A DNA stretch of 64,000 bases from positions 62,001-126,000 of the forward strand of contig CANRCT010000002.1 of assembly GCA_947629175.1 (NCBI GenBank), read 5' to 3'. Shown one piece after another: positions 58,790 through 63,997 of this stretch. Within the stretch, counting starts at the first letter, position 1; every line of letters begins with the position of its first letter. Under the pieces are notes generated by a model. That model ran no database searches. It saw only the letters and a program-made list of their open reading frames with translations, and was not told the origin of the DNA. Source of the stretch: an uncultured Muribaculaceae bacterium. Lineage in GTDB: Bacteria > Bacteroidota > Bacteroidia > Bacteroidales > Muribaculaceae. The position numbers and the translations under genes are program-made.

Positions 58790-61174
58790 TCATACATATT
58801 GTTGCGGATCGAATATGTCCCAGTTAGTCGTATCAGATGTGCCGAGCTTCACGTCGAGCGGAGCGGCCGAATATACCCAGTTGCCGAAGTCGTCGGGTAT
58901 GATGATGCCGCCGTGGAGCTTTTTGCTCCTGTTTTCGGGAAGCTGCATATACTCCCACAGGGCGTTATGCTTGTAGGGGGCCTCCGGGTCGCTGTTTTCC
59001 GTCTTCGTGTCGAAAAGAAATATGTCACTACTTTTCATTCGGATTATAAAGTCGACATAGAACAGGGCTTTTTCGCCGAATGAGTTGGTGTAGCCAATGG
59101 CATAATGGGCTTTGCCCTGGTCGCCGTTCTTGTACCACCACTCAATCGCGTTGTTTTGAGATTCAAGGAAGCTCGCAAAAGCGTGTTCTACATTTGACGC
59201 TCCTTTGTATTCCATGAACGGCAGCAGTGCATGATAGTCAATCTGCGGCTGTTCGTCGAACGTATCGACCGGATAAGCACGCTCTGCCGGCACCTCCCAA
59301 TCGTAATGCTTGAAGGCGCGGCGTTTGGCGGCAGCCTGACGCAAACGTAATTTCGCCGTATATTGCATAATGGCATTAGACAGCACACGCTCAAACTTCG
59401 GGCGGTTATGATGCACATTATCATTGGAGAGGATAATCTTCATTGCATCATACTCGAACACTTCAAAGAGTTCTTCCATAATTTCTTTGAGGGCACCCCC
59501 CAGCGTCTTGACGCTGCGCTGTTCATAGTCGTTGCCGAGCAGCCTCTTGCAGAAAGCGAGGTACATTGCCGTAAGGTCGGATACATTATTGATATAAGTA
59601 GCTTTGCTCTCGACAATCTTTGTGCCGACCTCGCCGGTCATATCAAGGTCTTTAACGATATCGGTGCTTACATTCTTGACATTGAAATTGATGCCTCGCT
59701 GATTGACAGCTGCCTGTCGGTTGCTGTAAGTCTCGTTCGTTACTTCCTCCGCTCCTTCACACATTTCTCCTTCTCCAAAAAGCATCTCTTCGGTAAAGAG
59801 CGATAATTGTCCTGATTTAAGTCCCCATTCAGCCTTAAAAGTATTCTTCAATACATCCTTGAAGTCTGTTCCGAGCCGATTACGATCCAAGGACAGACGT
59901 TCACTATATTCGGCATCAAGAACAATATTTTTAATTTCCTCACGACGCTTAGTCCCTACAGTTTTTGCCAGATAATCCATATCGTCCTTCACGATTTCGA
60001 TTATATCTTTTGAAAGGTTCGTGTAGACGTAACCTTGATTTAGTCGTTGGTCGGTGTAATACTTCTGTTCCGGCATTCGGAGTATTCGCCCGACGGTCTG
60101 CGCCGAGAATTGGAAACTCTCAATCTTGCGGAAGATGATGAGCACGGCGGCGCGAGGGCAATCCCAACCGAGGGCAATGGCTTGCTTGAAAAGCAAAACC
60201 TCGGTGAGGTCGTTGGGACGGTCTATCACATCGAGGTTGTCGGTCTTCTCTCCCGAAAGCCAAATGGCGAGCTTGCTATTGGTGGTGTTGATGCCGTAAG
60301 CATCAAGAGTAGTGATGACCTCGTCCTTGACCTTGGTATCGTCAACGGTAAGGTTCTCGCTATTGTCATTAGGAAGCTGAATCAGCAAAAGCGGATTTAT
60401 CTCCACGCCGAGCTTTTTATAAGCGTCGGCGAGTTCCTTGCGCTTTTCCAGAGCAAGCCAAATGAGGTGTTGGTTGAGAGAGCCGTGAGGGTCTTTGAAG
60501 TCGAGAGCCGGATTAAGGATGATGTTCTCCTTTATCATTTCTTCCTCAATGACTTTCTCGCGGGGTACGTTAACTTGCTGCTCGCCGTTGGTCTGCGGCG
60601 TAGCGGACACTCGGATTTCAACCTTGGGCTGAATAGTGGCGAGCACCTTTTCCGACTTTTTTGCGTTCTTGCCGCCAAACATATGTTCCTCGTCAATCAC
60701 AAGCACGATAGGAATACCGTTATCGTCTTGTGTGCGGCGGGTAATATCATAAAGCGAAGCCGAGTTTTCGGTTTCGCGGACCAACAGGTTTTTGTCCTTG
60801 TTGATGCTCTCCCAGTTCACAAAGAGAATTTCGCCCGGCTTGATGTAGCCGTCGGCGGAGTGGTCGAGTTCATCGTAGATGACGGGGCGCAGAGCGCAAT
60901 TCTCGGTAAAGTAGTTCTTCATCTTAAAGTAGCTCTGCTCGTGCAGTTTATTTGGAGCAATCCAAATATAAGCTACTTCGGTGCATGGAGCATCAGGACG
61001 CTCGGCGAGTTCCTGGTTGAGCCGCATAAGCATCTCCGATGCCATAACGGTTTTTCCGGAACCGGTGGGCGACTTGAAAACGAGCGTATGGCGGCTGCCA
61101 CGCAGACCGAGCAAGTCGATGGTCTTGTTTACGAGTTCATCAACGGCTTTCTGCTGATAGCGTATTTGTTTCAT
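58790..61174 (-). CDS. Type III restriction enzyme, Res subunit
   Basis: 794 residues. Helicase with Walker A SPTGSGKT (35-42), DEEH box (161-164), SATP (190-193) and a motif VI-like QTVGRILRMPE. A PD-(D/E)XK-type nuclease is visible near the C-terminus (D708 and D722-T-K724). Type III enzymes translocate or slide on DNA and cut when two unmodified sites are engaged. Its start overlaps the mod gene by 4 bases. The codon use is less GC-rich at third positions than in the neighbours. Confidence 0.92.
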   Translation of the reverse strand: MKQIRYQQKAVDELVNKTIDLLGLRGSRHTLVFKSPTGSGKTVMASEMLMRLNQELAERPDAPCTEVAYIWIAPNKLHEQSYFKMKNYFTENCALRPVIYDELDHSADGYIKPGEILFVNWESINKDKNLLVRETENSASLYDITRRTQDDNGIPIVLVIDEEHMFGGKNAKKSEKVLATIQPKVEIRVSATPQTNGEQQVNVPREKVIEEEMIKENIILNPALDFKDPHGSLNQHLIWLALEKRKELADAYKKLGVEINPLLLIQLPNDNSENLTVDDTKVKDEVITTLDAYGINTTNSKLAIWLSGEKTDNLDVIDRPNDLTEVLLFKQAIALGWDCPRAAVLIIFRKIESFQFSAQTVGRILRMPEQKYYTDQRLNQGYVYTNLSKDIIEIVKDDMDYLAKTVGTKRREEIKNIVLDAEYSERLSLDRNRLGTDFKDVLKNTFKAEWGLKSGQLSLFTEEMLFGEGEMCEGAEEVTNETYSNRQAAVNQRGINFNVKNVSTDIVKDLDMTGEVGTKIVESKATYINNVSDLTAMYLAFCKRLLGNDYEQRSVKTLGGALKEIMEELFEVFEYDAMKIILSNDNVHHNRPKFERVLSNAIMQYTAKLRLRQAAAKRRAFKHYDWEVPAERAYPVDTFDEQPQIDYHALLPFMEYKGASNVEHAFASFLESQNNAIEWWYKNGDQGKAHYAIGYTNSFGEKALFYVDFIIRMKSSDIFLFDTKTENSDPEAPYKHNALWEYMQLPENRSKKLHGGIIIPDDFGNWVYSAAPLDVKLGTSDTTNWDIFDPQQYV

Positions 61175-63069
61175 TCGTCGCCTCCTTTCTCATAGTCCAG
61201 ACCAAATAAGCCTTCGTTGGATTCTTCGGCTTCATCATTCTCTACAATTTCTTCGACAAGTTCATCGACGAGGAATTTGGGTTTGCGTTTGGGCAGCACT
61301 TTTTGGTAAGCGTCGTAGATGGCTTGCGGCAGTGCGCACAGCTCTACGCGGTCTTCCACCTCGGCAAATTCATCGTCGTAGGCATAGCTGCCATGAGAGA
61401 AAACATAGACCTTGATTTTCTCCCCGTCCGGCATTGTATTGATAATGTCGGCAATGAACGGTATCGCCCTTTCCTCGTAAATTACAAGCATACGCTGTTC
61501 GGCATTTTCGAAGTAGCGGGCATATTTCGGATTCATCTTGCGGCCTCCAAACGGTGCCTCCGTATAGAGGTCATTCTTGATGCAGAGAAGCCCGGTTGAA
61601 GTCTGAACGAGTTCGCGCATATTTTTCACCGAGCGTTCACGAGGCAAAAATTTAGTCCGATAGTAGCGGAGATTATTGTCGGCAAGTCCGGCAACTTCCT
61701 CGCCGTTTGGTTTCGTATAACCCTCGATTACACGCTTGTTGCGTTCATAGGTAACATTCTCGCAGATACCGTTCTCATTGTTGGTGCAGAGAATACACTG
61801 GCGCCGTCCACCGTCCTCGCTGTTTTGTCGAAGTAAGGCTTGCATTGTTGTACCGGAACCTGCGAAAAAGTCCAGGTATATTCCATTTCGGAAATTTGCA
61901 AGGAAAATGATGTGTTGAATTAAATCAGTGCTTTTGGGGAAAGGGAAATCTTGATTTCCGAAGCCCAATTCTTTGAAATCCATCATAGCATTATCAGAAT
62001 TGAAAGCCTTTCTATCCCAAGACGTGTGCTCTTTTACAGTGCGCTCACCTTCTTTTTTATCAATGTAATCTTTTTCGTAGACAGTATATTTACCTTTGTA
62101 TTTAGGCATTTCTTTGGCTACAAGATTACCAAGGTTTTCGTTTGCTGTATTCATAGCCCATCTCCATCGACCATCGGTTCCATCTGGCTTAACGGGAAAT
62201 ATCTCGATGAATCCAAGAGCTAATAATTCAGGGTCAGAATTTTGTCTAACGAGTAAAGAATGATCTTGTGGATCCAGATAAAACGGATAGAACATTAACG
62301 GTCTGTCAATCTTCCTATCTGCATTACCCGTTTTTCTCAAGTCCGTTTCCCTATATCGGCGTCCGTCTACATCTACTTTATTGTATCTATCCGTGACTTT
62401 ATCTTCTGCGGGTAAAGCCGATGCAATCCAATTAGATGACTTTGAGTATATAAGTATATATTCGGTGGATTTAGCAAAATTAGAGCTATCTTGTTTACCC
62501 GATGTTTTTCTTACATATGTAATTGTCGCCTCATAATTGAAGAAACCAAATATTTCGTCACTCAAAAGGCGTAAATTAGCGAGTTCATTATCATCTATTG
62601 AAATAAAAATGACTCCATTATCAGACAACAACCGCTTGGCAATACGCAAACGTTTATCCATGAACGACAGCCACTTGGAGTGGCGGTAGCTATCCTCGCT
62701 GTCAACATATGAATCATTGTAGATAAAGTCCTTGTTGCCGGTATTGTAAGGAGGGTCGATGTAGATAACATCAATCTTGCCCGCATGAGTGTATGACAAC
62801 TCCGTGAGCGCGGCGAGATTGTCGCCCTCGATAATGAGATGATTGGGAGCGTCAGGGTTATCGGAAATTATCGGGTGGACTTTATCATCGTTGCGCTCGA
62901 CGAGGACAGGGAGGTCTTCGCGAAGGCGTTCCTCGATGTCTTCGGGCTTTTCTTCCCACACAAGCCCGAACTTCTTATAACCACGAATGAGTTCAAGCAA
63001 CGCTGATTTTTCATCGTTACTCAAACCATCAAGGTTTTGGATTTTCCGAGCCAGATCAGTCTTATTCAT
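61171..63069 (-). CDS. Type III DNA-methyltransferase, Mod subunit
   Basis: 632 residues. DPPY (105-108) comes before FAGSGTT (402-408), which is the beta-class order of type III Mod and N6-adenine enzymes. The segment between, about 170-370, should hold the target-recognition domain; its DNA (about 61950-62560) is visibly A+T-rich. The enzyme methylates adenine in a 5-6 base asymmetric site and guides Res. Overlap of 4 bases with res. A structured RNA lies directly upstream. Confidence 0.93.
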   Translation of the reverse strand: MNKTDLARKIQNLDGLSNDEKSALLELIRGYKKFGLVWEEKPEDIEERLREDLPVLVERNDDKVHPIISDNPDAPNHLIIEGDNLAALTELSYTHAGKIDVIYIDPPYNTGNKDFIYNDSYVDSEDSYRHSKWLSFMDKRLRIAKRLLSDNGVIFISIDDNELANLRLLSDEIFGFFNYEATITYVRKTSGKQDSSNFAKSTEYILIYSKSSNWIASALPAEDKVTDRYNKVDVDGRRYRETDLRKTGNADRKIDRPLMFYPFYLDPQDHSLLVRQNSDPELLALGFIEIFPVKPDGTDGRWRWAMNTANENLGNLVAKEMPKYKGKYTVYEKDYIDKKEGERTVKEHTSWDRKAFNSDNAMMDFKELGFGNQDFPFPKSTDLIQHIIFLANFRNGIYLDFFAGSGTTMQALLRQNSEDGGRRQCILCTNNENGICENVTYERNKRVIEGYTKPNGEEVAGLADNNLRYYRTKFLPRERSVKNMRELVQTSTGLLCIKNDLYTEAPFGGRKMNPKYARYFENAEQRMLVIYEERAIPFIADIINTMPDGEKIKVYVFSHGSYAYDDEFAEVEDRVELCALPQAIYDAYQKVLPKRKPKFLVDELVEEIVENDEAEESNEGLFGLDYEKGGDE

Positions 63070-63120
63070 GGCGACCGATTAAGGTTAGTTGTCGCCAATA
63101 CCCCTCTGCGACTGGTGAAT

Positions 63121-63212
63121 AAAAAAGGAGTGGGTATCTGTACCTTCGCTCATTCTACACATCACGGAGGTCGGAATTCCTGAACCCATAGAATGAAATA
63201 CAGATAACCCAC
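63121..63212 (-). terminator. Terminator of the structured RNA
   Basis: The outer 13-bp stem GTGGGTTATCTGTA (63212-63199) with TACAGATACCCAC (63142-63130), one bulged base, is followed by TCC and T6. An inner 8-bp stem TCATTCTA (63196-63189) / TAGAATGA (63157-63150) extends it. It is 51 bases before the mod ATG. Confidence 0.75.
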
Positions 63213-63432
63213 GCCGATATGTGAATACCCCAAACCCACTCTATGCCAATTAAGGCACAGAATGAGCCGGATAGGTATGAACATACCCCGTGAGCGTTTA
63301 CTGTTCTTCAATCCTGGTGGGTTAAAAGTTTCCGACGCTTTTGATGTGCCAAGAAAGAAGCGTTGATAAACGCCTTTTATTTTAATTACCTCCCGCCTCG
63401 CTCCCTCTCTTGGAAGACGCACGGCTTGAGTC
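63121..63432 (-). ncRNA. Unidentified structured RNA, about 310 nt, upstream of mod
   Basis: A minus-strand transcript is framed by a TAAATTTG promoter box (63439-63446) and a T6 terminator (63121-63126). Base pairing seen by eye: a 15-bp hairpin with a TTAATT loop (63268-63254 with 63247-63233), a 6-bp hairpin (63363-63358 with 63340-63335), a 7-bp enclosing stem (63373-63367 with 63300-63294), a 5-bp hairpin GGTAT/ATACC near 63275-63288, and the terminator stem. A possible crossing pairing (63413-63406 with 63356-63349) suggests a pseudoknot or an alternative fold. It does not match tmRNA, RNase P, SRP or 6S RNA as I know them. It could be an independent small RNA or a leader of mod. An 86-codon ORF overlaps it and is probably spurious. 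Confidence 0.7.
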
Positions 63433-63438
63433 TTGGTG

Positions 63439-63446
63439 CAAATTTA
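63439..63446 (-). promoter_or_regulatory. -7 box of the structured RNA
   Basis: Minus-strand TAAATTTG followed by CACC. A GATT about 20 bases upstream is a poor -33 box. The remaining part of the gap (63447-63532) holds only a plus-strand TAATTTTG (63483-63490) with no gene downstream of it. Confidence 0.55.
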
Positions 63447-63533
63447 GCAATAAATCTTAAACGAAGAATCGCTGGTTGCGAGTAATTTTGTCATACTCGT
63501 CAAGAACTCGGATTTTGCATCCAGCCGTAACTG

Positions 63534-63573
63534 CAAAAAAATGACGCGAGTGCGAAAATATCACACCCGCGTC
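63534..63573 (-). terminator. Terminator of the small lipoprotein gene
   Basis: 12-bp stem, two G-U pairs, GACGCGGGTGTG (63573-63562) with CGCACTCGCGTC (63554-63543), 7-base loop, then a T run (63541-63534) on the minus strand. Confidence 0.85.
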
Positions 63574-63592
63574 AATAATACTCATAATGGGT

Positions 63593-63997
63593 TCAGAGCT
63601 CGTCCTTCTCGAAGACGATTTCTACCACTTCGCCGCTCTTGTTGCCTTTGTAGTCGAACTTCAGGCTGCGGTCAACGGATTTCACCAGGTCGATGAAGGC
63701 CTTGTTGGAAGCCTGGTTGATGACGGAAGCCTTAAGATTCTTCTTCGACTCCTCGGCGCCGGCCTTGATGGTGGCCATGTCGGAGAGTTCCTCGTCCACG
63801 ACATAATTGTAGATCACATAGCCGTCGTCGAAAGAGAGACTCATTTCCTCGATTCCAGGCATCTTCTGGCCCTTGAGCTGCTCGTTGATCTGTTCAACGG
63901 CCACTGAAAGAGCCTTGTCCTTGGCACCGCTGCAGGCAGTGGTGAGAGTCATCATGGCTATCACGGCCACGATAAGCAGATTAGCTATTTTTTTCAT
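63593..63997 (-). CDS. Small lipoprotein
   Basis: 134 residues. Lipoprotein signal with Cys22 in LTTAC. The mature part has a helix (LSVAVEQINEQLKGQKMPGI) followed by beta strands (MSLSFDDGYVIYNYVVDEE), and ends in KSGEVVEIVFEKDEL. No family recognised. Full length, as the ATG at 63997 lies at the window edge; the promoter is outside the window. Confidence 0.82.
   Translation of the reverse strand: MKKIANLLIVAVIAMMTLTTACSGAKDKALSVAVEQINEQLKGQKMPGIEEMSLSFDDGYVIYNYVVDEELSDMATIKAGAEESKKNLKASVINQASNKAFIDLVKSVDRSLKFDYKGNKSGEVVEIVFEKDEL

Follow-up and report, generated by a model that had tools for sequence, protein, structure and literature searches.

A putative cis-acting transcription attenuator from a previously uncatalogued, multi-copy Bacteroidales RNA family

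Between a gene for a lipoprotein-like protein and a type III restriction-modification operon of an uncultured Muribaculaceae bacterium lies a region that is dense in potential RNA stems. The original prediction for this locus, made within a window of 64,000 nucleotides of genomic DNA, left two readings side by side, an independent non-coding RNA and a long leader of the methyltransferase gene mod, and the question is thus what kind of RNA this is and what it does to the gene behind it. We consider that it is probably a cis-acting transcription attenuator, belonging to a previously uncatalogued, multi-copy RNA family of the Bacteroidales.

An uncatalogued RNA family

The main features of the locus are collected in Table 1. 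The promoter box and the hairpin with a T6 tract that had been proposed to bracket the RNA are both in place, as is the 15-bp stem with its TTAATT loop, and the structured character of the region was confirmed by a predicted MFE of −126.8 kcal/mol, compared with −85.2 ± 4.6 for shuffled sequences (z −9.1, 0/100). In the operon, mod is the first gene past the leader and its end is overlapped by res. An 86-aa open reading frame (63162-63422) spanning the RNA was rejected, having no match in Pfam or PADLOC and showing indels in its homologues that are not multiples of three.

Table 1. Coordinates of the RNA, its helices and the neighbouring genes in the window
Feature	Positions	Strand	Description	Basis
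Promoter box	63439..63446	−	Bacteroidetes −7 box TAAATTTG, TAnnTTTG type	sequence
Structured RNA	63433-63121	−	~310 nt, between promoter box and T6	
H1	63390..63430	−	5′ hairpin; CUC/GAG, CGCC/GGCG-type and CUUCC/GGAAG-type pairs	window MFE
S1	63294..63373	−	OFF-fold helix, GCGUUUA (63373-63367) : UAAACGC (63300-63294)	
S2	63306..63356	−	OFF-fold helix, UUUCUUGG (63356-63349) with CCAGGAUUGAAG (63317-63306)	
K1-K3	63157..63349	−	Hypervariable helices: K1 63349-63342/63164-63157, K2 63336-63330/63176-63170, K3 63323-63318/63188-63183	
AT	63189..63313	−	Antiterminator: 5′ strand ~63313-63287, 3′ strand ~63214-63189	window MFE and swap test
H3 apex	63233..63268	−	15-bp hairpin, UUAAUU loop	double changes at 14/14 modelled pairs, distant copies
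H4	63121..63212	−	Intrinsic terminator: 5′ arm 63212-63189, 3′ arm 63157-63130, T6 63126-63121	sequence
LH	63091..63112	−	Leader hairpin GUCGC[AGAGGGGUAUUG]GCGAC	loop complementary to terminator 3′ arm
mod	61171..63069	−	Type III DNA methyltransferase	PF01555 3e-33; PADLOC MTase_III 2.1e-84
res	58790..61174	−	Type III restriction subunit	PF04851 1.6e-14; PADLOC REase_III 3.4e-16
Lipoprotein-like gene	63593-63997		134 aa; the RNA sits between it and the operon	

That the RNA would prove not to be a known one was borne out by Rfam, which gave no match at the gathering score over the whole 64-kb window, no meaningful match at E ≤ 10 in the region 62900-63700 and, in version 15, no family over the element at the gathering score in 55 homologous loci. 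The matches at that score in the window and these loci (tRNA, SRP, abiF, DUF805b and FopS) all lie outside the RNA, and the FopS found elsewhere in locus L074 indicates that the search works. Among the individual families considered, none of Bacteroid-trp, Bacteroidales-1, Bacteroides-1, Bacteroides-2 and FopS (RF04319) matches any tested copy at the gathering score, and the T-box model has no match over any copy tested. No DNA similar to the window RNA was found in phages or plasmids, and no description of the family was found in searches of an open-access library or, for selected terms, in the work of Weinberg in 2010 (PMC2864571) and the B. theta map (PMC7366714). Two known RNAs do lie close to copies of the element, an abiF RNA (L082:3361-3397) and an sRNA of the FopS family (L074:7818-7885).

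Of 297 genomes from the same family, a minority have strong copies by DNA similarity, mostly directly 5′ of a mod-res pair. A search with a covariance model built on the 177-nt core (R1, cut-off E ≤ 1e-4) finds matches in 266 of these 297 genomes (~90%), often several in each, scoring being capped at nine. It also finds them in 93 of 393 genomes sampled across the order, but not in any of 147 elsewhere in the phylum, and the copies in gut Bacteroidales run to hundreds. The genome of the window itself holds at least five copies. Most copies come from metagenome-assembled genomes; named records with core-model matches include Xylanibacter rodentium PROD, Palleniella muris NM73_A23 and Bacteroides sp. 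GM023, all of which also fit the terminator-hairpin pattern, and Paraprevotella xylaniphila YIT 11841 was matched by that pattern only. Cultured isolates carry the RNA, which makes it testable at once. As far as its sequences tell, the RNA is a real, widespread and uncatalogued family.

Two sets of pairings that exclude each other

Compensatory changes in the stems were the support to look for according to the original prediction, and they were found: already in the first 27 sequences, 20 of the 43 core pairs showed double changes. With 40 distant, distinct copies, 37 of the 43 model pairs did so, 91.2% of the cells pair and 302 cells carry double changes; neither of these last two values was reached in 500 shuffles, and six slid registers came nowhere near. 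Since this alignment had been fitted to the model, cognate complementarity was also tested in a model-free manner, by setting the duplex energy of strands from one and the same copy against that of strands swapped between copies (n = 114, 2000 permutations), the positions of arms and loops being cut by simple rules. The energies of own against swapped strands were −8.9 and −8.1 for S1 (z −7.3), −14.7 and −11.7 for S2 (z −12.9), −33.8 and −29.3 for the terminator arms (z −13.4), −12.5 and −10.7 for the terminator 3′ arm with the leader hairpin LH described below (z −7.8), and −23.5 and −20.7 kcal/mol for AT (z −11.5), with 0/2000 permutations in every case, the z values not being probabilities because the permutations ignore relatedness.

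The fold that we call OFF contains S1, S2 and the terminator. In the 40 distant copies, 97.5% of the S1 cells are paired, and S2 shows double changes in 8/8 pairs with 92.7% paired. The 5′ strand of S1 (63360-63373) has an alternative local hairpin, GCGUU/AACGC, and in 113 of 121 copies this GCG could form a local stem of 4 bp or more, a possible third conformation. Further upstream, H1 is kept in most type III-linked copies.

The second fold, ON, is built from the antiterminator AT, the apical hairpin H3 and the K helices, which are hypervariable: nearly every copy has two or three of them, nested and specific to that copy. The best single-helix K score is 21.8 for own strands and 15.0 ± 0.3 for swapped ones (0/5000; n = 66, relatedness ignored), and a separate set of 58 copies, fetched with a pattern limited to the terminator hairpin and a portion of K2, gave 21.5 against 16.5 ± 0.3 (0/5000). 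In its predicted MFE structure the window RNA forms one long hairpin in which K1-K3, AT and H3 are nested. A description of the K helices as kissing loops alone was dropped in view of this nesting, which led to the model of two folds. AT is also backed by helix 3 of the core model in the 40 distant copies; its 3′ strand includes the 5′ arm of the terminator and its 5′ strand includes the 3′ strand of S1 (S1b). The terminator 5′ arm can thus pair either with the 3′ arm or with the 5′ strand of AT, in a mutually exclusive way. Sequence comparison establishes that both sets of pairings are maintained, and two exclusive folds kept in evolution are the signature of an attenuator switch.

The leader hairpin and the genes that follow

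Most copies carry a further hairpin in the leader of the gene, ~10-60 nt past the U-tract, whose loop complements the 3′ arm of the terminator. In the window, the LH loop GGGUAUU (63103-63097) is complementary to GAUACCC (63138-63132), and other copies have their own loop/3′-arm pairs, such as GAGCCUG/CAGGCUC (L102), GAAAGCC/GGCUUUC (L109), GAGCGG/CCGCUC (L112) and GGGAAUCUG/CAGAUUCCC (L177). Two weakly scoring copies in the genome of the window also have private pairs, recognised by eye (CGUUCC/GGAACG and AAUCCUC/GAGGAUU). When leaders are scored against 3′ arms, own combinations reach 15.2 and swapped ones 12.7 ± 0.3 (0/20000; n = 51), and a separate set gives 15.0 and 12.5 ± 0.3 (0/20000; n = 56), relatedness being ignored in both. 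The sites fall in an apical loop in 46 of 56 cases, compared with 24 expected by position. At the level of sequence, the copy-specific complementarity of LH is established, with a weak match in some copies (e.g., L074, L081, L105). The predicted MFE structure of the window readthrough transcript combines the giant hairpin with the pairing of the 3′ arm and LH, and the window leader folded alone prefers another hairpin than LH. The idea that LH copies the 5′ arm, as a shared protein site would, was discarded: identity to the own 5′ arm is no better than to others (0.64 vs 0.62), perfect 5′-arm matches number 0/43, and LH tracks the complement of the 3′ arm.

The position of the RNA is equally regular. 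All of 46 loci fetched by pattern have their first downstream open reading frame on the same strand, and in 41 it starts at most 400 nt away. A TAnnTTTG box precedes the core in 64 of 67 copies, where shuffled flanks would give ~10%, and in a further set it does so in 47 of 60; after the terminator it is found in only 2/67 and 0/56, with ~3% expected. The gene is therefore probably reached only by readthrough. On these grounds, the same-strand gene, the lack of a TAnnTTTG box of its own and the matched LH, the "long leader of mod" is favoured over the "independent ncRNA" of the original prediction, the latter keeping in its support the RNA's own promoter and terminator.

The predicted link to a type III methyltransferase holds at this locus and for what turned out to be a single sub-class within a far broader family, and control specific for type III systems was consequently rejected. 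Within the sub-class, identity to the window proteins runs from ~45% to 83% for Mod (aligned segments) and from 45% to 89% for Res, indicating that the RNA is kept before divergent enzymes. Mod homologues under the RNA (L035, L037, L039, L043) show two well-matched segments and a divergent middle relative to the window protein, a pattern as would be expected for exchange of the target-recognition domain. Close copies of the RNA also precede another subtype of type III mod (L061, L066, L069), an HKD+SNF2 helicase protein (L063, L065), a BspA-like LRR protein (L051) and an acyltransferase (L064). BspA-type LRR proteins recur downstream (L051, L073, L074, L102, L108, L148), together with a fimbrillin (L094), an SPFH protein (L081), an FtsK-gamma domain protein (L084), a D12 methyltransferase (L106), SNF2/PLD helicases (L090, L101), lipoproteins, and outer-membrane and hypothetical secreted proteins. 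No shared pathway was seen among the downstream genes examined. The HKD+Snf2 helicase genes (L063:2579-5812 and L065:2574-5873; PADLOC C3a139) lie in operons that also contain a mod-like gene and are candidates for a defence system under the same RNA class.

At the sequence level, the element presents an upstream promoter, an intrinsic terminator before the gene, an exclusive antiterminator kept by covariation and a gene on the same strand, as expected for a transcription attenuator. According to the mechanism that we propose, transcription would start at the TAnnTTTG promoter. In the OFF state, S1 and S2 would form and take the upstream strands, the terminator 5′ arm would pair with the 3′ arm, and RNA polymerase would stop at the U-tract and release an RNA of ~310 nt. 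In the ON state, the partners of the upstream strands would instead be the 5′ arm and the stretch separating the two arms (K1-K3 and AT, the giant hairpin around H3), so that the terminator would be blocked and mod-res transcribed. The 3′ arm orphaned in the readthrough transcript would then be captured by the LH loop just 5′ of the start codon; this capture may either lock the RNA in its ON fold or control how accessible the start site is. Lying past the terminator, LH is made too late to determine whether its own transcript terminates. We infer that the folds do switch, that readthrough drives the gene and that LH acts as a latch holding the freed 3′ arm, a pairing for which we know of no other example among attenuators.

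Known systems and alternative readings

The general kind of element is known. Attenuation leaders such as riboswitches, T-boxes and ribosomal protein leaders also have a promoter, a long structured 5′ leader, a terminator before the gene and an alternative helix that uses the 5′ arm of the terminator, and T-box leaders likewise occur in several copies before different genes. The window family differs from the riboswitch, T-box and leader families in Rfam, none of which it matches, as well as in its hypervariable K helices and in a post-terminator hairpin matched to the terminator 3′ arm; with these, and with pairing private to each copy, it is a distinct variant. It shares its taxonomic range with the Bacteroidales RNAs of Rfam, some of which are leaders or intergenic RNAs. 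More tentatively, a common RNA switch, present many times per genome, might set accessory operons off or on by antitermination through private codes, a latch and a common signal or factor, a wider picture that we are slightly more inclined to doubt than to accept. If true, the operons so switched would be restriction systems, helicase defence operons, surface LRR proteins and fimbriae, and an RNA carried by ~90% of the sampled genomes of a gut bacterial family and absent from Rfam would represent a major missing regulatory layer. The RNA precedes restriction-modification and further defence-like operons as well as surface proteins, and knowledge of the signal would reveal how accessory genes are switched in these bacteria.

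The main rival for the role of LH is action in trans, where the terminated RNA would be an independent sRNA silencing the downstream mRNA, its 3′ arm pairing to the LH loop that lies close to the start codon. The own promoter and terminator and the copy-specific complementarity would suit such an sRNA, and there is a precedent in SreA of Listeria, a riboswitch acting in trans whose terminated leader RNA is complementary to an mRNA leader. In the window family, by contrast, the complementary leader is adjacent, in cis, and the 3′ arm of the terminated RNA is taken up by the terminator stem. Leader hairpins of the type III class occur in 11 of 297 genomes at 12 sites; one of these is at a contig end and each of the others adjoins an RNA copy, which gives no sign of a scattered regulon. 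A first gene on the opposite strand was found in 0/46 loci, and the position is not independent of one downstream gene as it would be for a trans-acting sRNA. We thus consider this reading unlikely, and the cis-acting attenuator remains our preferred one.

An ornate self-assembling RNA like GOLLD, ROOL or OLE, in which the K helices would be intermolecular loop-loop contacts and the gene position secondary, is very improbable. RNAs of this kind assemble into homo-oligomers by way of conserved contacts between molecules (PMC12286853), and the elaborate fold with long-range loop-loop complementarity is indeed a shared feature of these bacterial RNAs and the window family; however, the K helices nest with AT in a simple single-molecule hairpin, Rfam gives no match, and the tight association with genes and LH would be left unexplained. 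GOLLD and ROOL are phage-associated (PMC12286853), and the window family differs from all three in being ~310 nt long, dispersed in several copies, proximal to genes and usually accompanied by a leader element that matches it.

That the RNA is a mobile or repeat-like element (retron-type RNA, invertible promoter or transposon end) landing before genes by chance is hardly credible. In favour of this reading are the patchy, multi-copy distribution, the near-identical RNAs before different genes in different families (L084, L086) and two copies ~1.7 kb apart in L048. Against it stand the invariable orientation towards the gene, the accompanying promoter, terminator and matched leader, the compensatory changes that maintain RNA pairing, and the diversity of the first genes, with no reverse transcriptase or recombinase as constant partner among those examined.

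The L048 copies lie at 560-878 and 2262-2573; the first, its U-tract lost, seems degenerate, and the second precedes mod-res. The L084 and L086 copies (L084:3945-4124 and L086:3938-4117) belong to two different families of the order and are near-identical in RNA and LH hairpin, with different downstream genes and different intervening DNA, so that RNA and LH look like two functional parts travelling together; judging from these sequences, we read the case as a recent horizontal transfer of the cassette. Finally, on an IMG/VR contig (L256:392-552), the RNA lies 5′ of a gene for an EF-Tu-like GTPase, in what may be either host DNA or a phage-borne copy.
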